Part shown: in pieces, positions 5,061 to 15,109 of the stretch
Layout of the letters: every line of letters starts with the position of its first letter
Numbering within the stretch: position 1 is the first letter of the stretch
Origin: a virus
Virus record (IMG/VR): IMGVR_UViG_3300005613_000423
Location: 1-23,204 of that record
Direction: 5' to 3' (one strand)
Length of the DNA: 23,204 nucleotides
Made by a program: the position numbers and the translations under genes
The notes under the pieces: model-generated
The model's input: the letters and a program-made list of their open reading frames with translations, nothing else
Databases searched by the model: none
Told to the model about the DNA's origin: nothing

Positions 5061-6074
5061 CTAGCTCGGGTTCGCGGTGGCCGCGCACTCGATACGAGCA
5101 ATCCACTGCTCATTCAGGATAGCCGCGGCGAACCACGTCTTCCAACCAACCGAACCCTTCTGACCCAGCGGGTCGCCGCCACGAGGCGTCGGGTTCAGGA
5201 CGGCGATGTTCACGGCCTGACGTCCCTGAAGGCGGACACAAGCGTACGCATCGCGTGCAACCACCAGAAGCGGATACACGTCTGCCGAGGATGCCCCTGA
5301 CGGGATCGATCCATTCGACAGGTAAGTGGTGCCAGAAGCACCAGCGGCCGACCAGGGCTCGAACATCGGCGTCAGAATGAAGCGAACCTGCTCCACCGAA
5401 CCGATTTCGCCGGCCTGTGCCTGCCCGGGATTGCCATAAGCAACCACGTTCACGAATCCCGTGATCCCGCGAATGTCGGAATCGAGGTCCGTGTGCCCCA
5501 TTGCGAAGTAACCGCGCTCAACGCCCTGCGTCGAGATCTTCGCCGTCGGGCCGATGATCTGCGTCAGCGGGGAGGCCAGTGCGCGGGAGAACCCACGGGT
5601 GACCTTGCGGAGATCGCCACGAGTGACGGGTGAATTCACCAGCGTACGAGATGCCACGCCGGCTGCGTAGAAGACGTTCGTCCCGCCCTTCAGCACGTCG
5701 ATCGTCAGCGACTCGATGACCTTGGCGAACTGTTCGCCACTGCGGTCCATTGCCACCTGGAGGATCGGATCCTCGTGGGTGTCGGTGATGTGGTCTGTGA
5801 GTTCAGCGACATCGCCATACTGCTGCAGCGTGGCGGTGTAATCGGTGAACGTGATCGCGTGTCCCGCGGGGGCCACACCTTCCGCCAGCGGTGCGGTCGT
5901 CACAGGGAAACTGTGATACCGGCGCCACTTGCGAACCTTGCCGCTGTTCTGCTTATGGGTGTCCATCTGCCCGAACCGCTGCGTTACCATCAGAGGCTGA
6001 CCAACTCGAAGCAAACGAGCTGCTGCCTTGACGCCTACTCTGGGGGAAAGATCCCCATATGTGTTGACTGCCAT
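5061..6074 (-). CDS. Major capsid protein, N4-gp56 family
   Basis: This 337-residue protein shows the pattern of the N4-gp56 major capsid family: an N-terminal SPRVGV...LLRVGQPLMVTQRFGQ block (residues 10-36), KWRRY (49-53), PLAEGVAP (62-69), a LQQYGDVAELTD block (83-94) and HTDLDSDIR (194-202), which precede a GF(V)N stretch. The family forms an HK97-fold shell. It follows the scaffold and Com-like genes, as expected for a head operon. AAGGAGT lies upstream of the ATG. The coding region is intact and of ordinary family length. A strong hairpin follows the stop. Confidence 0.88.
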   Translation of the reverse strand: MAVNTYGDLSPRVGVKAAARLLRVGQPLMVTQRFGQMDTHKQNSGKVRKWRRYHSFPVTTAPLAEGVAPAGHAITFTDYTATLQQYGDVAELTDHITDTHEDPILQVAMDRSGEQFAKVIESLTIDVLKGGTNVFYAAGVASRTLVNSPVTRGDLRKVTRGFSRALASPLTQIIGPTAKISTQGVERGYFAMGHTDLDSDIRGITGFVNVVAYGNPGQAQAGEIGSVEQVRFILTPMFEPWSAAGASGTTYLSNGSIPSGASSADVYPLLVVARDAYACVRLQGRQAVNIAVLNPTPRGGDPLGQKGSVGWKTWFAAAILNEQWIARIECAATANPS

Positions 6075-6349: not shown

Positions 6350-7388
6350 CAGCTTCCTCATCAAATGCACTGTCAAGATCTTCGTCACTGTCAGTCTCGC
6401 CGCTCTTCTGGACGGACTTTTTCTGCCTGGTCGTGGCAGCGTTGAGCTTGTCCTTCTTGGCTTTCGCCTCGCGCTGATCCTTGGCAACACGTTCAGCTTC
6501 GGCCTTCTTCTCATCTGCGGCGGCCTTGGCTTCGTCCGTCTTGGTCTCAACACCGGTCTCAGACTTGAACCGGTTCAGAATCTGCGCAATGTCAGCCGCA
6601 TCGGTCACGGCGTCCATGTACTCCTGATACCGCTCGGACTGCTTGTTGCCCCACTCCTGGAAGTCGTCCGACGCGATAATGTCAGCCGCATCTGGGTGGC
6701 CGTGCTTCTCATCGCCGAGAGTCTCGTACAGAGCCTGCTCTGCAGCAGCCTGAGCCTGAGATGTGATCATCTCGCGCACCGGGGTGATCTCGCCCGTCAT
6801 CTTGTCGAACATGTGGCCCATCATGGCCTTCATCGCGTTGCTGATCTCGGGGAACATCTCGACGAACTCACCCATGGTCTTGGGCATCGGGGCCTCTTCG
6901 GTCCCGCCGTCACCGATCTCCATGTCCTTGAGAGAATCGAGGGCACCGTCCAGAAACTCTGAACGAGCCGTGTCCTTAGCTTCGGTTGCGGCCTTCTCGG
7001 CAGCAGCCTTCTGCTTTTCGGTGGGCTCGGTCGGCTTCTTGGCTGCGGCAGCTTCACGTTCCCGGGCAGCCTTGTCCTCTTCGGACTCTGCGGCCTTGGC
7101 AGCCTCTGCAGCTTTCGCCTCTTCGTCGGCAGCAGCCTTCTCGACAGCGGCTTTCTCTTCGGCTTCCTTCTCTTCGGGAGTCTGCTCTTCAGCGGCAGCA
7201 GCTTCTGCTTCATCAGCAGCCTTTTCCTCAGGGGTCTGCTCTTCGGCTGCGGCAGCCTCAGCGGCAGCTTCTGCGGCCGTGGTGTCGCCGTCGTCCTCGT
7301 CAAATGCAGCGTCAAGCTCGTTCGCCTCTTCGGGCGTTTCGAGTCCGCTATCGACTACTTGCTCATTGGCTTCTGTGTCGTCTGGCAT
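6342..7388 (-). CDS. Scaffold-like head assembly protein
   Basis: This 348-residue protein is extremely rich in Ala, Glu and Lys, with long helical or coiled-coil stretches and a Met-rich middle (FPEISNAMKAMMGHMFDKM, about residues 180-198). Such a composition, just upstream of the major capsid gene, is typical of phage scaffolding proteins, which line the procapsid and leave before or during packaging. An AEEQTPEEK block occurs twice (about residues 47-75). An acidic LDAAFDED motif lies at 25-32 and LDSAFDEE at 338-345, next to the C-terminus, where scaffolds often contact capsid. GGAGAAACACG precedes the ATG. Function is inferred from composition and order. Confidence 0.75.
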   Translation of the reverse strand: MPDDTEANEQVVDSGLETPEEANELDAAFDEDDGDTTAAEAAAEAAAAEEQTPEEKAADEAEAAAAEEQTPEEKEAEEKAAVEKAAADEEAKAAEAAKAAESEEDKAAREREAAAAKKPTEPTEKQKAAAEKAATEAKDTARSEFLDGALDSLKDMEIGDGGTEEAPMPKTMGEFVEMFPEISNAMKAMMGHMFDKMTGEITPVREMITSQAQAAAEQALYETLGDEKHGHPDAADIIASDDFQEWGNKQSERYQEYMDAVTDAADIAQILNRFKSETGVETKTDEAKAAADEKKAEAERVAKDQREAKAKKDKLNAATTRQKKSVQKSGETDSDEDLDSAFDEEADA

Positions 7389-7417
7389 CGTGTTTCTCCG
7401 TTACGTGTTCTCTTGAC

Positions 7418-7494
7418 TGGTAGCAGGAGTAGGATTTGAACCTACGACCTCCAGGCTATGAACCTAGCGAGCTCCCGGACTGCTCCATCCTGCA
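7418..7494 (-). tRNA. tRNA-Met (CAT), initiator type
   Basis: The 77-nt gene folds as a full cloverleaf: acceptor TGCAGGA/TCCTGCT, D stem GAGC/GCTC, anticodon stem CTAGG/CCTGG, loop TTCATAG with anticodon CAT (7458-7460), T stem GTAGG/CCTAC with loop TTCAAAT, and an encoded ACCA end. Two features mark an initiator tRNA: the 1-72 position is a mismatch (T-T here, C-A in E. coli) and the D stem has A11-T24. D loop, AGGTC variable loop and T loop also resemble bacterial tRNA-fMet. The anticodon stem has AGG/CCT in place of the usual three G-C pairs. It lies within the head operon, between the 257-residue gene and the scaffold gene. Confidence 0.93.
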
Positions 7495-7502
7495 CCTAAA
7501 AA

Positions 7503-8276
7503 CTAGTCGTCACCAAGATTCGCCCAGATGATGGTGACCGTCGCGTCCACCGTATTCGTGGTGTCCGCATCGATATCGCCGCCATCCAAAAGGATATTGC
7601 AATAGACGTCCTTCGCAGTGGCGGTCCCGTCAAAGTAGGATTCGGCCACGGTATCCAGGGCGCTGACTGCATCGGTTACGTTCGTGACCGGATCGATAGA
7701 CACTTTCGCGTCCGTCAGGTCAATCTCGGTAGTCGACAGGTCAGAGCCCGTACCGACGGTCGTGCCAAAGGAGAAGTCGCCCCCATGGTCGTTGTCGATA
7801 ACTGAGTTCGTGGCAAACGTGAAGTCCTCCACCTGGAACCCGAGGATATAGATCTGCCCCTCTGGGAAGTCGTATATCTTCGTGCCTCCGCAGCTATTGG
7901 TGGAACCGGTCAGGTCTGTCACGACAATCGGCGTGTCGTCCAGCACGATGATGGTCTTCTGAATGTATGCCAGGCTTTCGGTGGCGGTTTCCGTTGACCC
8001 CGTAGCAGAGCCTACGCCATCCACGGCGCCGTCCATCGCGTTGAGCTCGGTAACGGTGGCGGTGATGCCGTCCATCGCATTCAACTCAGCCGCCGTTGCA
8101 GTGATCTCGACTCCGTCCATCTTGAGCTTGCCGCCCTCAATGTCGATCACGCCGCCAGTGTCAACCTTCACAACGTCGTTGATGACTTTCGGCAGGGCTT
8201 CGGCAGGAGTCGCGAGGATTCCTACAAAGGCGATGAGTGCGATGATGGCCCAGATAGATGTCAGTGTGCGTTTCAT
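7503..8276 (-). CDS. Late-operon protein with Sec signal peptide and ELNAMDG repeats
   Basis: This 257-residue protein starts with a textbook Sec signal peptide: MKRTL, then SIWAIIALIAFVGILA, then TPAEA before residue 29. The mature part has two copies of (T)ELNAMDG or AELNAMDG (about residues 63-83), a pattern seen in phage fibre and head-fibre proteins, followed by a beta-rich acidic domain. It lies between two virion candidates and the scaffold gene. GGAGGACCACATC precedes the ATG. Exported phage proteins in a head operon are unusual; a surface-exposed virion or head fibre with a retained or cleaved leader is one reading, an envelope-targeted protein another. I cannot decide. Confidence 0.7.
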   Translation of the reverse strand: MKRTLTSIWAIIALIAFVGILATPAEALPKVINDVVKVDTGGVIDIEGGKLKMDGVEITATAAELNAMDGITATVTELNAMDGAVDGVGSATGSTETATESLAYIQKTIIVLDDTPIVVTDLTGSTNSCGGTKIYDFPEGQIYILGFQVEDFTFATNSVIDNDHGGDFSFGTTVGTGSDLSTTEIDLTDAKVSIDPVTNVTDAVSALDTVAESYFDGTATAKDVYCNILLDGGDIDADTTNTVDATVTIIWANLGDD

Positions 8277-8295
8277 GATGTGGTCCTCCAGTTGT

Positions 8296-8334
8296 CGGGT
8301 CAGTTATTGGGTCGTTCAGTTTCCGGGTCAGTTA
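8296..8334 (-). repeat. Short direct repeat in a 62-base intergenic gap
   Basis: The 11-mer CGGGTCAGTTA (plus strand) occurs at 8296-8306 and 8324-8334, exactly 28 bases apart, with a related GGGTCGTTCAGTT between them. The array lies between the 119-residue and 257-residue genes, just upstream of the ribosome binding site of the latter. Confidence 0.6.
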
Positions 8335-8338
8335 ACGG

Positions 8339-8698
8339 TTAAGCAGTGATGGCGTTACTTCCGCCCTGCTGGACGATCGATCCGCCTTCGATGAACACCA
8401 GGCCAAAGCCATTGGTGACGAGAATGCCGCGGTTGGCTACTCGGGCAGCCCGAAGCTCGGCGCCGGTTTCATTGCGAGAGATAAGCACGAACGGATCTTC
8501 CCCCACCGGCGTCACCTTGCTGAGATCCTTGTTGATCTCGGCAGCTTCGGCAGCATCCTTGGCGTCCTGCTTTTCTTTGGCAGCGGCTTCGGCAGCATCA
8601 GCTTCAGCGGCTACTTCTTCCGGAGTCTGCTCGGCACCTTTGGGAACTTCGACGGTCTCTTCGGGCTTCTGGTCTTCGGCTGGTTTCTTTGCGGACAT
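8339..8698 (-). CDS. Small head protein candidate with acidic coiled N-terminus
   Basis: This 119-residue protein has two parts. Residues 1-60 are Ala/Glu/Lys-rich and helical, with an AEQTPEE block that also occurs twice in the scaffold protein. Residues 62-119 form a compact segment (TPVGEDPFVLISRNETGAEL, then a glycine-rich hydrophobic end IEGGSIVQQGGSNAITA). I do not recognise the family. The shared block and the position in the head operon suggest a virion or assembly protein that may contact the same partner as the scaffold. GAGGAGACC precedes the ATG. Confidence 0.65.
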   Translation of the reverse strand: MSAKKPAEDQKPEETVEVPKGAEQTPEEVAAEADAAEAAAKEKQDAKDAAEAAEINKDLSKVTPVGEDPFVLISRNETGAELRAARVANRGILVTNGFGLVFIEGGSIVQQGGSNAITA

Positions 8699-8710
8699 GG
8701 GAGGTCTCCT

Positions 8711-8989
8711 CTACTTTTCGCGCCTGGCGCGTTGCGTTATTGCTTCGGATGCTTCGTCAGGAGCCCCTATCACGGCATTCAGGGCCGCGACTGCTCCTGC
8801 CTTATACACCCAGTCTTCTGTCAAATCTTCGGGGCAGCGTCTCGGGGATGACTCGTTCTCTTTCCGGAGTCGGTCCCGCAGCTCAGTGGCGGTTTCGAGG
8901 ACGACTTTGGTTGAGGCATAGCTCATGGATTGCGCAACGGCAGACTGCTCATGGTCTTCTCGCTTGGCGATCCCTAGTCTGTATCCCAC
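8711..8989 (-). CDS. Unknown protein after the internal terminator, GTG start
   Basis: The 92-residue protein begins VGYRLGIAKRED if translated from the GTG at 8989. This start has a GGAGG eight bases upstream. A longer reading from a TTG at 9037 would start inside the intrinsic terminator and encode its U-run as phenylalanines, so it is rejected. The protein is mixed charged and helical with no recognised domain. It is the first gene after the terminator at 9023-9057, whose last T lies only 33 bases before the GTG. Confidence 0.65.
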   Translation of the reverse strand: MGYRLGIAKREDHEQSAVAQSMSYASTKVVLETATELRDRLRKENESSPRRCPEDLTEDWVYKAGAVAALNAVIGAPDEASEAITQRARREK

Positions 8990-9022
8990 GGTCTGATCCT
9001 CCGTTGAGTGAATCGGGGCAAT

Positions 9023-9057
9023 AAAAAAAGCCAACACGTACGTTGCAACGTGTTGGC
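9023..9057 (-). terminator. Intrinsic terminator inside the head operon
   Basis: On the minus strand GCCAACACGT, an 8-base loop and ACGTGTTGGC form ten pairs followed by seven Ts. It follows the 211-residue gene by about 165 bases and precedes the GTG of the next gene by only 33 bases. There is no room for a promoter after it, so downstream head genes depend on read-through or antitermination. Confidence 0.88.
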
Positions 9058-9223
9058 CTTCTTAAACTGCAAATACAGCCCCGGGTCATGACTCCCGATA
9101 CTGCCCGTCTCACTTCATACTCAAAACCTACTTCATGCTATGAACTCTGTGCAACTCTTTTTTTAGGATTTTCCCCAAGGGGTTGTGGTCTCCCCTCGGA
9201 GAATCCTCAACAGGTTGTGTCGC

Positions 9224-9859
9224 CTACTCCTCGAAATCAGGCTTTCCCGTGAACATCGGAGCCAGAATATCAGCATACGATCCGGAGAACATGGCCGGCT
9301 TGTGGTCCCACGGCACAACGTGGAACTCCATATCGACCTCTTCATCGAGGACCGCGCTGATATCGTCGTCGAAATCGTTACGCCGCTTGATGGCGTCGGC
9401 ATACTCGCCCTTGAGATCGTTCAGCAACCCGTCGAAGTCCTCTTTCAGAGCGGGCTGGATCTTGTACGCCGACGTGCCATTGTCGTCTTGGCGCATGACC
9501 GGCTGGCCGTGTTCATCGCGCACGCAGTGAGATTCGCATGCGGCGATGCGCTGTTTGTCGTATGCTTCGAGTTCCGGATCCTCGTACTCGGACTGCATCG
9601 CCATCTGGCGATCATAGGTGCGCTGGGCTTCGGCTCGGGCGCGATTGTAGTTTTTGCCGGCAGCGTACTGGAATTTGGCGATGCGGTCCTTCGTGGCGCG
9701 AATGGCCTCGGCTTCGGTCTCGAACTCCCCGCCTGATTGAACCGTGTTGGACTTGGCGATGACGAGGTCCAGCTCGGTGATGTTGGACACTGCGGCTTTG
9801 CCCAGGGCGTCCTGCAGTTCGGTAAGGTCTTTGCGGGTGATGGTTACGGTGGTGCTCAT
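9224..9859 (-). CDS. Unknown protein after portal, charged and coiled
   Basis: This 211-residue protein starts by ATGA overlap with the portal gene and has AAGGAAAGCCA upstream, so the two are co-translated. It is acidic and largely helical (ELQDALGKAAVSNITELDLV, then a charged stretch at residues 50-100), with a C-terminal hydrophobic patch FHVVPWDHKPAMF. I do not recognise the family. Position directly after the portal suggests a head-assembly or internal virion role. The gap of 165 bases that follows contains no gene; it holds two similar segments, CATGAAGTAGG and TATGAAGTGAG, and then the terminator. Confidence 0.65.
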   Translation of the reverse strand: MSTTVTITRKDLTELQDALGKAAVSNITELDLVIAKSNTVQSGGEFETEAEAIRATKDRIAKFQYAAGKNYNRARAEAQRTYDRQMAMQSEYEDPELEAYDKQRIAACESHCVRDEHGQPVMRQDDNGTSAYKIQPALKEDFDGLLNDLKGEYADAIKRRNDFDDDISAVLDEEVDMEFHVVPWDHKPAMFSGSYADILAPMFTGKPDFEE

Positions 9860-11850
9860 TGGCTTTCCTTTTTGGGTTTGGCCTTCGCTGCGGCCGCTTG
9901 CTGTTGTTTCGCCCGGGCGTCATTTACGACCTTGGCTCGTTCGATTTTGAGTTTCTCTTCGTCCAGTGCCATGTCGTGAGCGTTCTTCTCGATGTCGCTC
10001 GCGTTCTTCTGGTTCTCGATCTGCTGGCCTTCAATGGCGAGAGCCTGCGCCTGCTGGGCGGCCTGAACCTCAGGACTGTTCGCCTGCGCTTCAGCTTCTG
10101 CCTGCTTCTGCTCGTCGGACTTGAGGAGTTGATCTGGCTCGATATCCATGGCCTTGGCGATCTCCTCAATCATCCAACGGAGGTTGACCTCTGCCAGGAT
10201 ATCCGGGCGATCGATGATGAGGCCGAAGAGTTGCAGTAGCTTCTGGAGTCGAATGTACTGGTTCTCGAAGCTGCTGAACCCGAGAGCCTTGACGCGGAAC
10301 ACGCCCTTCTCAACTGGCAGGTCCGGATCCATCATGTTGTAGCGGTAGAAGTCGGTGATGATCGTCTCGATGAACTTGTCCATCCGCTTGATGATCTCGG
10401 CCATGTACTTGCCGGAACGTTCGAGACGCTGCTGGAGCTCAAATGCTGTCTGAGGGTTGACCGACTGCTGGCCCTGCTCTGCCCGCGGGATCGAACTCGA
10501 CATGTCGGCGAACTCAAGGAACAGGGTGATCAGTTCGGACAGGGGCCCGATCATGCTGTCGATCTTCAGTTGCTCAACGGCCTCGCGCACTCCGCGCTGG
10601 CTTTCCTCGTCGATCGTGAGTGTGACGATGGCCTTGTCGCCGCCGACTTCCTTCTCGAAATTCTCGATCATCATGGCGCGTTTCAAGGCAATGATGAGCT
10701 TCGAGGCCATCTTCATGTTGTCCTCAAGCGTGCGGACTGCGCCATTCAACACTTTCATCACACTGTACAGATTGTCGGCAATCGACCGGCCACAGTTGCC
10801 GTCCAGCACCTCTTCCCAGTCGCCCATGTAGAACGGACGTTCGCGGGGATCATCGGTGCGGAGGTAGGCGATGACCTCGTCGTTGGCCATCATGGCAAAG
10901 ATCTCAATCATGTCCCCGTCAGCGATCTCCTCGTCATCCTTGTAGCGGGACTCGGGACGCTGGATATCCTCATGATCCTCCAGCATCGCCTCAAAGGATT
11001 CGACCTTCGACCGGGGAACACGTCCCCAGAACTCGATGATGTGGATGTTGCGGGATCGGTTCTTGATGTCACGAAGCTTGGTGGGGAGGGCGCTGGTGTC
11101 GTCGGTGATCTGGGTGTCGCCCTGCCGGCGGTTGGAGTTCTTGATGGCTCGGTCAATGAACACGTCGAGATAGAGCGGCTCGCCTTTCTTCTCGCGCAGG
11201 TCGAACGGGCTGATGTGATCGATCTGGATTACGGCCTCGCCTTCGGTAAGGTCGTCCTTCTCCATGTCCCAGAACATATTGAACACGCTGATGTTCTCAA
11301 CGCCCATCGTGGTCTCGTCGCCCTGGACCTCAACGAATACGTTCTCGTCGACCGGCTCGAACCCGTCGTTGATCATCTTGGTGGTGTAACGCTTGGCGAA
11401 ATACCGACCGTAGGTGGCGCCTGATAGCACGCATTTGCCGAATTCAGTAACGGCATCGCAGTTCTGCAATTGCCGACCGATATATTTCTCGTTTTGCTCG
11501 ACTATCGGATCGGCGCCACCCTCAGTCGGTTGATTGGGTTCTTCGGGATGGACCAACATGAAGTTGACCTTGGATCCCTTGAAAGCTGTGTCGGAGATGA
11601 TCGCCTTGGCCGCGGTGACCTTCTGGCGAACGGTGTCGAACATGGTGTCGGACTGCCATTCCTCAGCACGCTCGGACTTCTTCCATGTCCCGTGCTCGTC
11701 GAACTCGAGATTGACTTCTGTCGCTGCTCGGTTCCGTTGCCACCGCGTCTCAAGCTCGTTGCGGTTCTCTTTGTAGTTCTTGAAAACCACGCCCCGGATA
11801 TAGGCTCCGAGGTCGTTTGTCTCTGAGGATGTGGTGGTGGAGTCTGCCAT
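9856..11850 (-). CDS. Portal protein
   Basis: This 664-residue protein is placed and sized as a portal of the larger podovirus-like type. The N-terminus (residues 10-50) has YIRGVVFKNYKENRNELETR, followed by a DTVRQKVTAAKAIISD segment, a common portal opening in phages with N4-gp56 capsids. A long helical region (residues 360-560) and a Gln/Ala/Lys/Glu-rich coiled C-terminus (590-664) follow. The portal forms the dodecameric ring at one head vertex through which terminase packages DNA. It follows the staple-like gene by three bases and its ribosome binding site GAGGA is formed by the last codons of that gene. Family call is by overall pattern and context. Confidence 0.8.
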   Translation of the reverse strand: MADSTTTSSETNDLGAYIRGVVFKNYKENRNELETRWQRNRAATEVNLEFDEHGTWKKSERAEEWQSDTMFDTVRQKVTAAKAIISDTAFKGSKVNFMLVHPEEPNQPTEGGADPIVEQNEKYIGRQLQNCDAVTEFGKCVLSGATYGRYFAKRYTTKMINDGFEPVDENVFVEVQGDETTMGVENISVFNMFWDMEKDDLTEGEAVIQIDHISPFDLREKKGEPLYLDVFIDRAIKNSNRRQGDTQITDDTSALPTKLRDIKNRSRNIHIIEFWGRVPRSKVESFEAMLEDHEDIQRPESRYKDDEEIADGDMIEIFAMMANDEVIAYLRTDDPRERPFYMGDWEEVLDGNCGRSIADNLYSVMKVLNGAVRTLEDNMKMASKLIIALKRAMMIENFEKEVGGDKAIVTLTIDEESQRGVREAVEQLKIDSMIGPLSELITLFLEFADMSSSIPRAEQGQQSVNPQTAFELQQRLERSGKYMAEIIKRMDKFIETIITDFYRYNMMDPDLPVEKGVFRVKALGFSSFENQYIRLQKLLQLFGLIIDRPDILAEVNLRWMIEEIAKAMDIEPDQLLKSDEQKQAEAEAQANSPEVQAAQQAQALAIEGQQIENQKNASDIEKNAHDMALDEEKLKIERAKVVNDARAKQQQAAAAKAKPKKESQ

Positions 11851-11853
11851 GGG

Positions 11854-12171
11854 TTAGTCCTCGTCAAAGGCTTCGTCGAGTTGCTTGTCCTGGTCGAAGT
11901 CGGCCTTGATGATCTGAAGCTGAACGCTGGACTGCTCCCAATGGTCTTCAGATGTTTCCTTGTCGACCTTTTTGACGACCTTGACCCTGACGACGGCGTT
12001 CATTCCGAACTCCTGGCCAGATTTGGCGTCGATCATATCAGGGAACTTCTCGAGGGTCTTGCCCTCAAGCGTTATCGAAAGTTGGTGGGGGTACTGAGCC
12101 TGATCCATGGAGATAGGCTTGGGTTCGGAGTCTGTCTTCTTCGGCTTCGGGAGCTTCAGGTCTTTCAACAT
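11854..12171 (-). CDS. Capsid staple-like protein with LDEAFDED tail
   Basis: This 105-residue protein starts at the ATG at 12171, with AAAGGACCACG upstream. An upstream ATG at 12243 has no ribosome binding site and would translate a hairpin, so it is rejected. After a Lys/Pro-rich N-terminus, the body runs QYPHQLSITLEGKTLEKFPD, then VVRVKVVKKVDKE and VQLQIIKADF. This YP-L-I-L...VxVxAxxxV...VELQI layout matches small beta proteins annotated as capsid staple proteins in other phages, often beside the portal gene. The last eight residues are LDEAFDED, a motif that recurs in two other proteins. It is the first gene after the late promoter. Confidence 0.6.
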   Translation of the reverse strand: MLKDLKLPKPKKTDSEPKPISMDQAQYPHQLSITLEGKTLEKFPDMIDAKSGQEFGMNAVVRVKVVKKVDKETSEDHWEQSSVQLQIIKADFDQDKQLDEAFDED

Positions 12172-12194
12172 CGTGGTCCTTTCGATGGGTGCCC

Positions 12195-12223
12195 CCTGCT
12201 GGCAGGAGAGAGCTACCAGCAGG
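12195..12223 (-). other. Hairpin in the late-operon 5' leader
   Basis: On the minus strand CCTGCTGG, a 13-base loop and CCAGCAGG form eight perfect pairs in the leader between the promoter and the first late gene, about 14 bases ahead of its ribosome binding site. It could stabilise the leader or regulate translation. Confidence 0.55.
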
Positions 12224-12280
12224 AGGCGGGGGGCTTGGCGCATGGTCTACTTGAACATGACGAACTCCGATTACTTGGGT

Positions 12281-12331
12281 ACTACCCGTAGTCTGAGTTC
12301 TCTTATACACGCACTACGGGTGGTGGGTCAA
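12281..12331 (-). promoter_or_regulatory. Sigma70-type late promoter with paired palindromic operators
   Basis: On the minus strand TTGACC (12326-12331) and TATAAG (12302-12307) are separated by 18 bases, matching sigma70 -35 and -10 elements at five of six positions each. The start site would lie near 12295. Two near-identical 12-bp palindromes flank the -10: ACTACCCGTAGT at 12281-12292, just after the start site, and ACTACGGGTGGT at 12313-12324 in the spacer (11 of 12 matches to the palindrome). A dimeric regulator bound at both sites would block RNA polymerase. The promoter lies directly behind the terminator of the tmRNA transcript and drives the head operon. Confidence 0.78.
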
Positions 12332-12344
12332 GGGGGATGTGAAC

Positions 12345-12373
12345 AAAAAAGAACCGCCCCGAAGGACGGCTCT
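12345..12373 (-). terminator. Intrinsic terminator after tmRNA
   Basis: On the minus strand AGAGCCGTCC, a TTCG tetraloop and GGGCGGTTCT form a ten-pair stem (two G-U) followed by six Ts. It begins eight bases after the CCA of tmRNA and ends the upstream transcription unit just before the late promoter. Confidence 0.92.
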
Positions 12374-12381
12374 TATCGTGA

Positions 12382-12776
12382 TGGTGGACCTGGCGGGGGT
12401 CGAACCCGCGTCCGCAAACGGTTCCATCAATCACTCTACGTGCGTAGGTCCGTGAAGTGGACCAATCAAGGGGCGACTGGCGATCCCGGTAAGGATCTCG
12501 TGACAGTCGCGACTCCACCATCCAGACTGTTTAACCTATTGACACCGCTGGAACGTGTCGCCGCTATACCCGAGCGGTCTACGAGGATCTCCCTGCGTGG
12601 CGTTTAAGGCTTTTGGTACTCCCAAGGATAGCTTCCCTCAGCCCGATCAGCGTATCTACGCTGCGATATCAAGTGCTTCAGCATTTGAATTGTGAATCGG
12701 CTTGTTAACGAGGCCAACCGATCAACCCCGGCACGCATGACTGCTTCCACGTCTCCGTCGAAACCAAGTCAGGCCC
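12382..12776 (-). ncRNA. ssrA: tmRNA (transfer-messenger RNA)
   Basis: This 395-nt gene has the one-piece tmRNA layout. The 5' end GGGCCTG pairs with CAGGTCC before the encoded ACCA end, and the 3' tRNA-like part contains GGACGCGGGTTCGACCCCCG, the tmRNA T arm. The 5' part has TTTCGACGG and then GTTGGCCTCGTTAAC, both conserved in bacterial tmRNAs. The tag frame (12656-12691) ends in SNAEALDIAA and a TAG stop that sits in the loop of a CAGCGT/ACGCTG hairpin, as in E. coli. It ends with AA, as expected for a ClpXP degron. The resume codon is most likely AAT (Asn), but its position is inferred. tmRNA with SmpB rescues stalled ribosomes; no SmpB gene is in this window. Confidence 0.95.
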
Positions 12777-12793
12777 ATAGATTCAAAGATCAG

Positions 12794-12866
12794 AGGCTCG
12801 GGGCGTTGGACTCGAACCAACATCTAAGCCGCGCCAGCCTGCTCTGACCAATTGAGCTAACCCCGA
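12794..12866 (-). tRNA. tRNA-like gene with shortened anticodon arm
   Basis: Acceptor TCGGGGT/GCCCCGA, D arm GCTC-AATTGGTCA-GAGC and T arm GTTGG-TTCGAGT-CCAAC are perfect, and the gene lies 17 bases upstream of tmRNA. Between D and T arms, however, only 19 bases remain in place of about 23, and no normal five-pair stem with a seven-base loop can be drawn. Alternatives are a weak AGGC/GCTT stem with loop TGGCGCG, which lacks U33, or GCTG/CGGC with a three-base loop. The 3' end reads GCCT, so CCA would have to be added. It is either a decayed tRNA, a tRNA with a sequencing error, or a tRNA-like RNA with another use. No amino acid can be assigned. Confidence 0.6.
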
Positions 12867-12943
12867 GTTGCACGAGCGCCATGACTGACGTTAGGCGTGA
12901 GCCAAATTGCAGGACCCCGTGCGTGAGTCATCATTCAAGCAGA

Positions 12944-13144
12944 TCAGCCGCCGGGTGTCAACTTCGCCCTGACTGCTGCGTCCTTCGCTTCAAGAAGCTT
13001 TCGCAGCGCAACAGTGCGTTCGGGCCCAGGCTCAACCGTCTCCACCAAGGCAAACGCCAGATCCCCGAACGGGGCCGACACTTCCTGTAGGTGCGGCGGC
13101 AGGTGGCCGTACTCAAACCATTTCAACATTCTGTCCGGTTCCAT
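12944..13144 (-). CDS. Small conserved phage protein (acb2/Tad1-like family not implied)
   Basis: This 66-residue protein has the pattern WFEYGHLPPHLQEVSAPFGD, then PGPERTVALRKLLEAKDAAV. I recognise this arrangement (W+FxYxHLPxxLQxVSxxFxxLA...GPERxxALxKLLEAKDAAVR) as a widespread small phage protein. Some family members with this signature have been described as binding cyclic-nucleotide signals in anti-defence (Acb2-like), but I infer only resemblance. It has no signal peptide or membrane segment. AGGAGGAGACG precedes the ATG. It is the last protein gene before the RNA cassette and lies 18 bases after the 209-residue gene. Confidence 0.72.
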   Translation of the reverse strand: MEPDRMLKWFEYGHLPPHLQEVSAPFGDLAFALVETVEPGPERTVALRKLLEAKDAAVRAKLTPGG

Positions 13145-13162
13145 CGTCTCCTCCTCTTTGGG

Positions 13163-13792
13163 TTAATCGTACTCTTCGTTTCCTCTTCGCCACCGAAATT
13201 GATCCATCCCCGCCACGCAGGCCATCATTGCTTGCCTCGCCGGATAGAAAAGAGCGCGGTTCGTTTGGTAGGCTCGCTGCTGCGTGATGAAACCACCGTC
13301 CTTGTTGACTCGAAGTTTCCCCTCCATCGCCATCATCGATACCAGGTGCGATACGTCTGCTTCCTCATCCCAGATTGTTTCTGGCAGCACCGGCTTCGGC
13401 TTCACCATCGCGCTGCGCCTGATGTCCCGCATGTACCGCCCGTAGGTGGCCGAGGAGTCGCGCCAGTAGAACTTGCTGCAGAAGTATTGCGACCAGCACT
13501 TATTCAGCCATGGCGCCAGCCCGCGGTACTTGATCTTCCCCGTCGAGTCGATGATGTGGTCGATGCAGGTGAAGGGAGTCTCCTCGAACATCGTGGCCAC
13601 ACCGGTCCGCAGGTTGACGCCCAGGATGAGAGCGTAGCCCTCGATGCGCTCCTGGTTGCCTTCGATGATGAGTGTGGGCCAGCAGAGCCCCCCACGCATG
13701 AGGTACTCGGCCGAGTTCTGGTCCTTGAAGTGGAGCGTGGTCGTGTCGCGCTTCTGGTGGTACGTGCTTGCTTCAGGTTTCTCGATGGGCAT
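13163..13792 (-). CDS. Unknown 209-residue protein
   Basis: I do not recognise this protein. The ATG at 13792 is chosen since GGAGG lies seven bases upstream; an ATG at 13807 would place that ribosome binding site inside the gene. The sequence has a beta-rich first half (LCWPTLIIEGNQERIEGYAL, then FEETPFTCIDHIID), a Trp/Tyr-rich centre (LNKCWSQYFCSKFYWRDSS) and a helical basic C-terminus. It overlaps the preceding 54-residue gene by 20 bases. It lies between two small unknown genes and the Acb2-resembling gene. Confidence 0.65.
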   Translation of the reverse strand: MPIEKPEASTYHQKRDTTTLHFKDQNSAEYLMRGGLCWPTLIIEGNQERIEGYALILGVNLRTGVATMFEETPFTCIDHIIDSTGKIKYRGLAPWLNKCWSQYFCSKFYWRDSSATYGRYMRDIRRSAMVKPKPVLPETIWDEEADVSHLVSMMAMEGKLRVNKDGGFITQQRAYQTNRALFYPARQAMMACVAGMDQFRWRRGNEEYD

Positions 13793-13937
13793 CAGTCGCC
13801 TCCGCATGTAGGTCCATCTTGATCATATCCAGCACGCCGATGGTCTCTGCGTAGCTGAGGTCTGCCTCCTGCCGCCAGTAGTTGATGCGGCTCATGAGGT
13901 CATTGAACAGGATCTCGACGCTCGGGTTCTCTGGCAT
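13773..13937 (-). CDS. Small helical protein, 54 residues
   Basis: This short gene reads MPENPSVEILFNDLMSRINY and then a helical, charged sequence to HRET. TAGGAGATGGTG precedes its ATG and it overlaps the next gene. No domain is recognised. It forms, with the 58-residue gene before it, a pair of short helical proteins that may act together. Confidence 0.55.
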   Translation of the reverse strand: MPENPSVEILFNDLMSRINYWRQEADLSYAETIGVLDMIKMDLHAEATDAHRET

Positions 13938-13946
13938 CACCATCTC

Positions 13947-14123
13947 CTAGTTGGGGCTCACGGCCATAGCCTTGGTCTGGGTGTCGAGCGTGACGCGAAG
14001 CTGGCGGTTAGTCTCCTCAGCGTCGTGCATCAGCAGCAAGATGTTGGATAGGGTGTCGGTGCGCGTCGGCTCTGGGAGCGCGAGCACCTTGCCGGCGGTT
14101 TCGGTTGCTTCCGTCTTGGTCAT
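13947..14123 (-). CDS. Small helical protein, 58 residues
   Basis: The ATG overlaps the stop of the preceding 329-residue gene (ATGA) and AAGGAG lies 12 bases upstream. It reads MTKTEATETAGKVLALPE and then a helical stretch TLSNILLLMHDAEETNRQLR, suited to an amphipathic helix or short coiled coil. I do not recognise the family. Confidence 0.55.
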   Translation of the reverse strand: MTKTEATETAGKVLALPEPTRTDTLSNILLLMHDAEETNRQLRVTLDTQTKAMAVSPN

Positions 14124-15109
14124 GACTTCTGCGACTCCTTCACCAGACTAACGAAATCAGCAAGCTTGGGTTCTGGGGGGTACTTGGCCATCCTCCGCTT
14201 TTTCCTCTCGTTTTCTTCCTGCTTAATCTCCTCGGATCCGCGATGACCGGGGTGGATGCCGGCACCGAACGTTGGCATGAGGTGATGCTTCGGGTATTTC
14301 ATGCGGTATTCTTTCATGGCCTGCTTATACAGAATCCGAGCTGCCGCGATGACGGTTGATTCGCACTCCTCGTCGAACGCCTCGTCGAGATCCTTGTCGC
14401 CCAGAGCGAGGCACTCGCGTAGGTGCTCGATCGATGGGATATCGTAGCGGTACACTGGCCTGCCGTCCATGGTCACAAGTCGCTTCCCATCAACGTATAC
14501 CCTGCGCTTGCCAAGGGGATCGTCTAGGTTGCTCGCAATGGTGTGCAGGGTTCCGTCCGGCATCGCGAACTGGATGGGGGCTGACATGTTGGGTGGATGT
14601 TCGTCCTCATGCAGTCTAATCAAATCAGATATTCCGCCGTTTTCTAGGGTCCGTAGTTGGCGTACAGCCGGGTGGATAATCTCGTCTGAATGCAGGCATG
14701 TGTAGTGCGTAATCCAATCCGCAAGCATCTCAATATCGATATCTCCATCATGAGGAACTGATGACAACTGATCATATGTTACCCGAGGGCTGATAAGATG
14801 GCACAGCGCCCTGACAAGAAACGCCCTCTCGCGAGCAATCTTATCGTATGGTTCGCGATCCTCGAACTCCTGCTGGGGTATGGCGGGGTCGTCTGGAAGC
14901 GGAATCGGCTCGTCGGACCACTGATCGCTCGGGGTGTGCCCATAGACATAGATGGATGACCGGCGGTGTACGTGCGCGAAGTGCGCCTTGATGATCTTGT
15001 CGCCGACGTCCTCAGCCGGGTGGAACTCGACAACCATCGGTGTGCCGTCGGTGCCGTTTCTAAACCAATACAACCCGCTCTCGATTGGAACCTTGTCAGT
15101 CCATTTCAT
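14120..15109 (-). CDS. Unknown 329-residue protein with LDEAFDEE motif
   Basis: The ATG at 15109 has GAGGAGAGAGAGAAT upstream; a TTG 20 codons earlier lies in the -35 of a possible promoter and is not used here. The N-terminus MKWTDKVPIESGLYWFRNGT resembles a common small phage domain with a GxYWxR motif. The middle contains a helical region and then DGKRLVTMDGRPVYRYDIPS. At residues 241-248 is LDEAFDEE, preceded by GDKD, nearly the same as the end of the staple-like protein (DKQLDEAFDED). The C-terminus is basic and charged. No enzyme motif is seen. It follows the large terminase gene. Confidence 0.65.
   Translation of the reverse strand: MKWTDKVPIESGLYWFRNGTDGTPMVVEFHPAEDVGDKIIKAHFAHVHRRSSIYVYGHTPSDQWSDEPIPLPDDPAIPQQEFEDREPYDKIARERAFLVRALCHLISPRVTYDQLSSVPHDGDIDIEMLADWITHYTCLHSDEIIHPAVRQLRTLENGGISDLIRLHEDEHPPNMSAPIQFAMPDGTLHTIASNLDDPLGKRRVYVDGKRLVTMDGRPVYRYDIPSIEHLRECLALGDKDLDEAFDEECESTVIAAARILYKQAMKEYRMKYPKHHLMPTFGAGIHPGHRGSEEIKQEENERKKRRMAKYPPEPKLADFVSLVKESQKS

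Follow-up and report, generated by a model that had tools for sequence, protein, structure and literature searches.

In phage T4 several unrelated proteins enter the head by means of a short common peptide, the capsid targeting sequence, which is N-terminal and is cleaved by the prohead protease. In another well-described case, the scaffold of phage 80alpha and the SaPI1 protein CpmB each insert a RIIK-containing C-terminal peptide into a single, shared coat-protein cleft, and mutations in this cleft-peptide contact are either lethal or abolish size redirection (PMC5644958). In P1 the capsid N-terminus is proposed to act as the scaffold, and the internal head proteins DarA and Hdf are proposed to have an added scaffold function at the inner capsid surface (PMC12810830). 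The place of gp10 of epsilon15 has shifted: re-analysis of the map attributed the outer "staple" density not to gp10 but to a protein of 130 aa (PMC9207676), the shell of BPP-1 is made of Bbp17 and Bbp16 (PMC3863775), neither of which is the gp10 homologue Bbp20, and in one later paper gp10 is described as lying on the inner surface (PMC12391199). Here we analyse a virus stretch of 23,204 nucleotides, IMG/VR record IMGVR_UViG_3300005613_000423 (the window), in which an acidic peptide, LD[ESA]AFDE[DE], recurs in a presumed scaffolding protein, a gp10-like protein and a protein of 329 residues. Comparison of sequences indicates that matching peptides at the ends of the presumed scaffold and of gp10 change together, in related as well as distant phages including epsilon15 and BPP-1.

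The four copies in three proteins noted by an earlier, sequence-only reading of the window are exact and all lie on the minus strand (Table 1). In the 6,553 residues of the 28 predicted proteins LD.AFDE matched four times against a mean of 0.0005 in 2,000 per-protein shuffles, the very acidic presumed scaffold alone contributing 0.0001 matches per shuffle; hence the motif is not equally frequent in shuffled acidic sequences. A much looser pattern again gave four matches, against 0.1 from shuffling, and a degenerate DNA-level pattern gave four where dinucleotide shuffles gave 0.01. In 14 matched pairs of peptides, four of them from the window, 44 of 90 same-residue codons were identical; a crude model based on GC content predicts about 35, so that silent sites differ to roughly the extent of unrelated codons. 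Given that the silent codons have diverged, it is the peptide that is conserved and not copied DNA, as had been proposed, and gene conversion or a DNA repeat is ruled out as the origin of the motif.

The strongest evidence comes from comparing the C-terminal tail of gp10 with the tail of the scaffold in the same phage. We used 17 gp10-bearing lineages with capsid identity below 75%, not fully independent of one another, which comprise the window phage, epsilon15, phiV10, BPP-1, metagenomic phages and prophages. The summed score of own pairs was 495, compared with a mean of 308 and a maximum of 446 over 200,000 permutations (p<=5e-6); peptide lengths and tail windows were set after the first examples, which means that the p-values apply to a pattern that was first found and afterwards extended, a set of 162 pairs having been gathered once the pattern had been stated. 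Controls pairing the gp10 tail with the capsid tail (p 0.56) or the scaffold interior (p 0.65), and the scaffold tail with the gp10 interior (p 0.08) or the gp10 N-terminus (p 0.07), gave no such signal. For the tail of the window gp10-like protein its own scaffold ranks first of the 17. The matched tails (gp10/scaffold) range from DLDTAFNEDD/DLDRAFNEDD in lineage L010, DDKTAFDEYS/EDEKAFDEHA in L018 and DDMEAGF/DDLDAGF in L020 to ELKDAFYP/DLISAFYP in epsilon15, SAAETLYG/SAAEVLYG in phiV10, AQRLYGASSMS/ARRLYAASNMN in BPP-1, KSAADVLYG/RSAAEVLYG in a Massilia prophage and AAKRMYG/AANRMYG in a Herminiimonas prophage. Such matches exceed composition-preserving shuffles (p<0.02) in nine of the 12 lineages tested. 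Likewise, the best non-scaffold match of the scaffold tail is the gp10 tail in epsilon15, BPP-1, phiV10, BcepC6B, L010, L018 and L020, and in the window the 329-residue protein and the gp10 tail take the first two places; in Jess A, ctQRb9 and L008 the gp10 tail does not stand out or is absent. As gp10 and the scaffold share no recognisable homology, likeness within each lineage requires coordinated change, for which, on the sequences compared, the best explanation is a single partner to which both have to fit. A search covering part of the literature found no paper describing the match between scaffold and gp10 tails.

The second line of evidence concerns the two ends of the scaffold. Homology searches with the presumed scaffold of the window returned weak PHROG matches of unknown function and no Pfam match; its gene position and its acidic, helical character both fit a phage scaffolding protein, and the open reading frame (ORF) at the matching position in StenR_269 is annotated as one. 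In 49 capsid relatives we sampled the ORF that immediately precedes the capsid gene, and from position, composition and the relatives' annotation we infer that it is the scaffold. Close to each of its ends this ORF usually has a short peptide like [LFYW]-acid-x-[AG]-[FW]-[DEN], and of about 34 relatives, reaching as far as N4 gp57, most carry a related peptide near each end. Examples, N-terminal end first, are DDFSSAFAEAAA...DDFSSAFKAAAA in L037, DDAESSFDEDD...DDAEASFNEDD in L022 and DEQLWNEIATDD...DQAIWDHFEAAD in L045, and the isolates Rollin, StenR_269, Y3 and N4 (gp57) agree with the pattern. Over 34 proteins the own N-end scored 1146 against the own C-end, compared with 842 for permuted pairs (p 5e-5), the likeness being absent in some of them. 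The sequence-only reading had staked its idea on the motif not being missing from homologues, and this is what we find: in most relatives the protein in the scaffold position carries lineage versions near both ends, and the C-tails of gp10 homologues match the scaffold tail of their own phage. N4 gp57 (L059 18084-19301, minus strand) stands in the scaffold position upstream of the capsid gene, has the end peptides MSDEEILNMP...MSDEDFMKLP, of the repeat form MSDE-(E/D)-x-x-x-(M/L)-P, and may be the N4 scaffold. Position and composition also suggest that epsilon15 gp6 (L062 5224-5940) and BPP-1 Bbp18 (L069 6614-7303), both annotated "protease" (PHROG 458) and without a Pfam domain over cut-off, are scaffolds.

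As to the gp10-like protein, the sequence-only reading had called it staple-like. Its kinship with epsilon15 gp10 stands: a four-homologue profile matched 3j40_N (epsilon15 gp10) with an expect value (E) of 1.4e-8, and the protein itself matched PHROG 825 (E 3.4e-6) and, at 22.6 bits, under the curated cut-off of 27, the Pfam family Gp10-like (PF21628). The label is in doubt, as a later study assigns the staple density of epsilon15 to another protein (PMC9207676). Within its own group, at 24-50% identity to the window protein, the F and E of the tail are invariant. A Foldseek search of its model (predicted local distance difference test, pLDDT, 72) against the PDB gave no match with E<=0.001. 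Scans of IMG/VR for gp10, using one protein or four sequences as the query, yielded only L010 and a sister contig of the window (IMGVR_UViG_3300005512_000260), another such scan returned just the query's own pair of contigs, and a phiV10-led alignment search returned near-identical prophages. In the Limnohabitans phage DC33 (PQ492659.1, L073) a gp10 homologue is encoded next to a protein of about 570 residues in the portal position, a tailed-podovirus-like arrangement; its taxonomy line reads Inoviridae, which looks wrong. Given the reassigned staple (PMC9207676), a BPP-1 shell built of Bbp17 and Bbp16 (PMC3863775) and the inner-surface description (PMC12391199), it is possible that gp10 occupies an inner, scaffold-site position.

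Taken together, we think it fairly likely that the motif is a short docking peptide of head assembly, used at both scaffold ends and at the tails of the gp10 family, and that scaffold and gp10 probably plug into a common place on the forming shell. Under this proposal a scaffold with a copy near each end and a long helical acidic body between them would cross-link coat subunits; the C-tail of gp10 would bind the pocket used by the scaffold ends, and gp10 would be recruited to the head either by binding alongside the scaffold in the procapsid or at sites that the scaffold vacates, so that we infer competitive or sequential binding. The 329-residue protein may be recruited by its peptide in the same manner. 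The partner is most likely the major capsid protein, a choice made by precedent and anatomy, the precedent being 80alpha and CpmB (PMC5644958). The sequence-only reading had suggested a common docking site on a capsid, portal or host factor; the peptide near the scaffold ends and the matched tails support the docking part for scaffold and gp10, well beyond the window phage, and the partner is a proposal of ours.

Several observations weigh against this proposal. Three of the 12 lineages (SAC, Jess A and ctQRb9) lack a significant tail match relative to shuffles; a gp10 homologue was not detected in most N4-type relatives, N4 itself included; and at N4-type loci the C-termini of other ORFs are barely enriched for the peptide of their own scaffold (nine against 5.2 expected at a score of at least 30). 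The identity of the scaffold rests on position and annotation, and annotation also names N4 gp57 a (tail length) tape measure protein and epsilon15 gp6 a protease. Finally, AlphaFold2 applied to an in-frame scaffold-intergenic linker-capsid translation, with stops read as glycine and 39 sequences, left both motif regions undocked and disordered (pLDDT about 35-42), a single-chain outcome that would neither favour nor exclude docking in an assembled capsomer.

A rather unlikely alternative gives the role of common partner to the portal, or to some other factor of assembly or of the host, with the scaffold ends recruiting the portal and the gp10 tail binding there too. In other phages scaffolds are established portal binders; in the window, L010 and L020 the genes for the gp10-like protein and the portal are direct neighbours, and bbp20 of BPP-1 follows the portal gene. 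Against this, gp10 of epsilon15 lies apart from the portal gene, and two copies on each abundant scaffold molecule fit a partner present in many copies. A host factor is the less likely as the motif diverges between related phages and does so in step inside each phage, which a host partner does not predict. It appears more doubtful still that the scaffold and gp10 ends bind the scaffold, gp10 thus riding on the scaffold and not on the coat: the motif at both scaffold ends fits such self-association and these data do not separate coat from scaffold binding, but the motif regions are predicted to be disordered and in the solved 80alpha case the C-ends of the scaffold lie on the coat (PMC5644958). 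We give very little credence to a processing site or degradation tag common to head proteins. The LDE-A junction resembles the consensus of the T4 prohead protease, and epsilon15 gp6 has a protease annotation; yet the scaffold copies read LDS and LDA, the LYG and FYP tails of epsilon15 type are without such a consensus, the capsid and cement proteins of BPP-1 are reported to be uncleaved (PMC3863775), no protease family was matched among the part of the window ORFs that was scanned, and the N-terminal copies argue against a C-terminal degron. Coincidence arising from the acidic, alanine-rich composition of the scaffold (Table 1) has a negligible chance, being ruled out by the shuffles of the window proteins and by the tail permutation test, with a tail match that outlasts composition-preserving shuffles in most lineages and holds even in the non-acidic LYG/FYP tails.

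The evidence for further carriers is uneven. The 329-residue protein belongs to no Pfam or PHROG family, and its internal copy has backing from three related genomes only. The sister contig (L006/L055/L060) is about 99.7-99.9% identical to the window over most of the shared part, and the two differ by a replacement of window positions 14124-14862 by L055 6864-7258, within which a 66-bp island (14363-14428) with motif copy 4 is kept at 91% identity. In this region the sister contig encodes two proteins, one of 234 aa with LDGAFEEE and one of 156 aa with LDAAFDDE. The more distant L008 has homologues of both, the first with LDKTFEAE (BLASTP E 5e-10 to the 329-residue protein of the window) and the second with LDDTFNCN (E 1e-7 to the 156-aa protein). 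Copy 4 may be part of a folded module, and use of a docking peptide by this protein is unproven. In the search for C-terminal carriers at N4-type loci only gp10-like proteins clearly stood out, the rest being single cases, such as a protein of 82 residues encoded downstream of the capsid in Rollin (DTAAFNEAFQSEK) and one of 176 residues in L031. Proteins of 81-83 residues encoded shortly downstream of the capsid gene, whose C-terminal peptide is like the ends of their own scaffold (L058 12759-13007, L033 11332-11577, L038 3899-4150), are a possible second carrier family. One may tentatively go further and see in the peptide at one or both scaffold ends a general, lineage-coevolving "scaffold tag" of tailed phages with N4-type and epsilon15-type capsids, a head-entry tag also borne by the gp10 family and by small proteins (the 329-, 234- and 156-aa proteins of the window clade, the 82-aa protein of Rollin and the 81-83-aa family of L033 and L038). 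It would then act as a cargo-loading code, with gp10 internal at scaffold sites and not an outer staple; we regard this as conceivable rather than likely.

On the minus strand the head genes comprise the terminase, the 329-residue protein, a 214-aa protein, the gp10-like protein, the portal, small proteins, the presumed scaffold and the capsid, with the end of the gp10-like gene 3 bases ahead of the portal start codon and the presumed scaffold gene preceding that of the capsid. The three carrier genes share one strand and one head-gene cluster, which lends no support to their earlier placement in different operons. The capsid protein scores 29.1 bits with Pfam PF25209, above the cut-off of 27, and its nearest isolate homologue is annotated as N4-gp56 family. 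A complete gene for a transfer-messenger RNA (tmRNA) also lies within this cluster, and two tRNA genes are on the same strand (Table 1).

Table 1. Positions in the window of the motif copies, the proteins discussed and the RNA genes
Feature	Position	Strand	Remarks
Motif copy 1, LDSAFDEE	6354..6377	-	In presumed scaffold
Motif copy 2, LDAAFDED	7293..7316	-	In presumed scaffold, residues 25-32
Motif copy 3, LDEAFDED	11857..11880	-	Very C-terminus of gp10-like protein, final ORF residues
Motif copy 4, LDEAFDEE	14366..14389	-	Inside 329-aa protein, closing a conserved module of ~47 residues
Major capsid protein, N4-gp56 family	5061..6074	-	Proposed partner; PHROG 1357 E 2.3e-56
Presumed scaffolding protein, 348 aa	6342..7388	-	Directly upstream of capsid gene; 28% D+E, 22% A
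Portal protein	9856..11850	-	PHROG 332 E 1.3e-30; homologues annotated portal; directly downstream of gp10-like gene
gp10-like protein, 104 aa	11854..12168	-	Remote homologue of epsilon15 gp10
329-aa protein with copy 4	14120..15109	-	ATG at 15109 backed by L008 ORF starting MKWT...YWYRN
tRNA-Met (cat)	7418..7494	-	Between scaffold gene and 257-aa gene
tmRNA, complete	12382..12776	-	Rfam RF00023 120 bits; ARAGORN tag AEALDIAA; upstream of gp10-like gene
tRNA-Arg (anticodon gcg)	12795..12866	-	Adjoining tmRNA

With its role and place in doubt since the staple assignment was questioned, gp10 of epsilon15 gains a prediction from the matching of tails, namely a binding site common to gp10 and the scaffold in epsilon15, phiV10 and BPP-1. 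The approach also offers a route, from sequence only, to scaffolds and head-entry tags where scaffold genes share no recognisable homology, and the peptide is a candidate for a tag by which proteins could be loaded into the heads of phages. Set against known systems, the T4 capsid targeting sequence is cleaved, whereas the window motif comes without evidence of cleavage. DarA and Hdf of P1 are likewise accessory head proteins, for which no shared short peptide is described (PMC12810830). N4 gp57 is alike in gene position and in a repeated peptide near both ends; it differs in that its peptide is unlike LDxAFDE, in its tape measure annotation and in that no gp10 homologue was found in N4. The epsilon15 gp10 family (PF21628, PHROG 825; BPP-1 Bbp20, phiV10) has a homologous core and a C-tail matching its own scaffold tail, the window differing in a tail of LDEAFDED in place of the LYG/FYP types and in a capsid of N4-gp56 type (PHROG 1357) in place of the epsilon15 gp7 type (PHROG 212). 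In the case of 80alpha and CpmB, both proteins bind and compete for one coat cleft, whereas here the partner is a proposed one; CpmB is a satellite protein that changes the capsid size, whereas here both proteins are encoded in one phage genome; the peptide is RIIK there and an LDxAFDE, FYP or LYG type tail here; and the scaffold of the N4-type group has the peptide near both ends. What the two systems have in common is a pair of otherwise different proteins with a matching C-terminal peptide, here at the tails of the scaffold and gp10.

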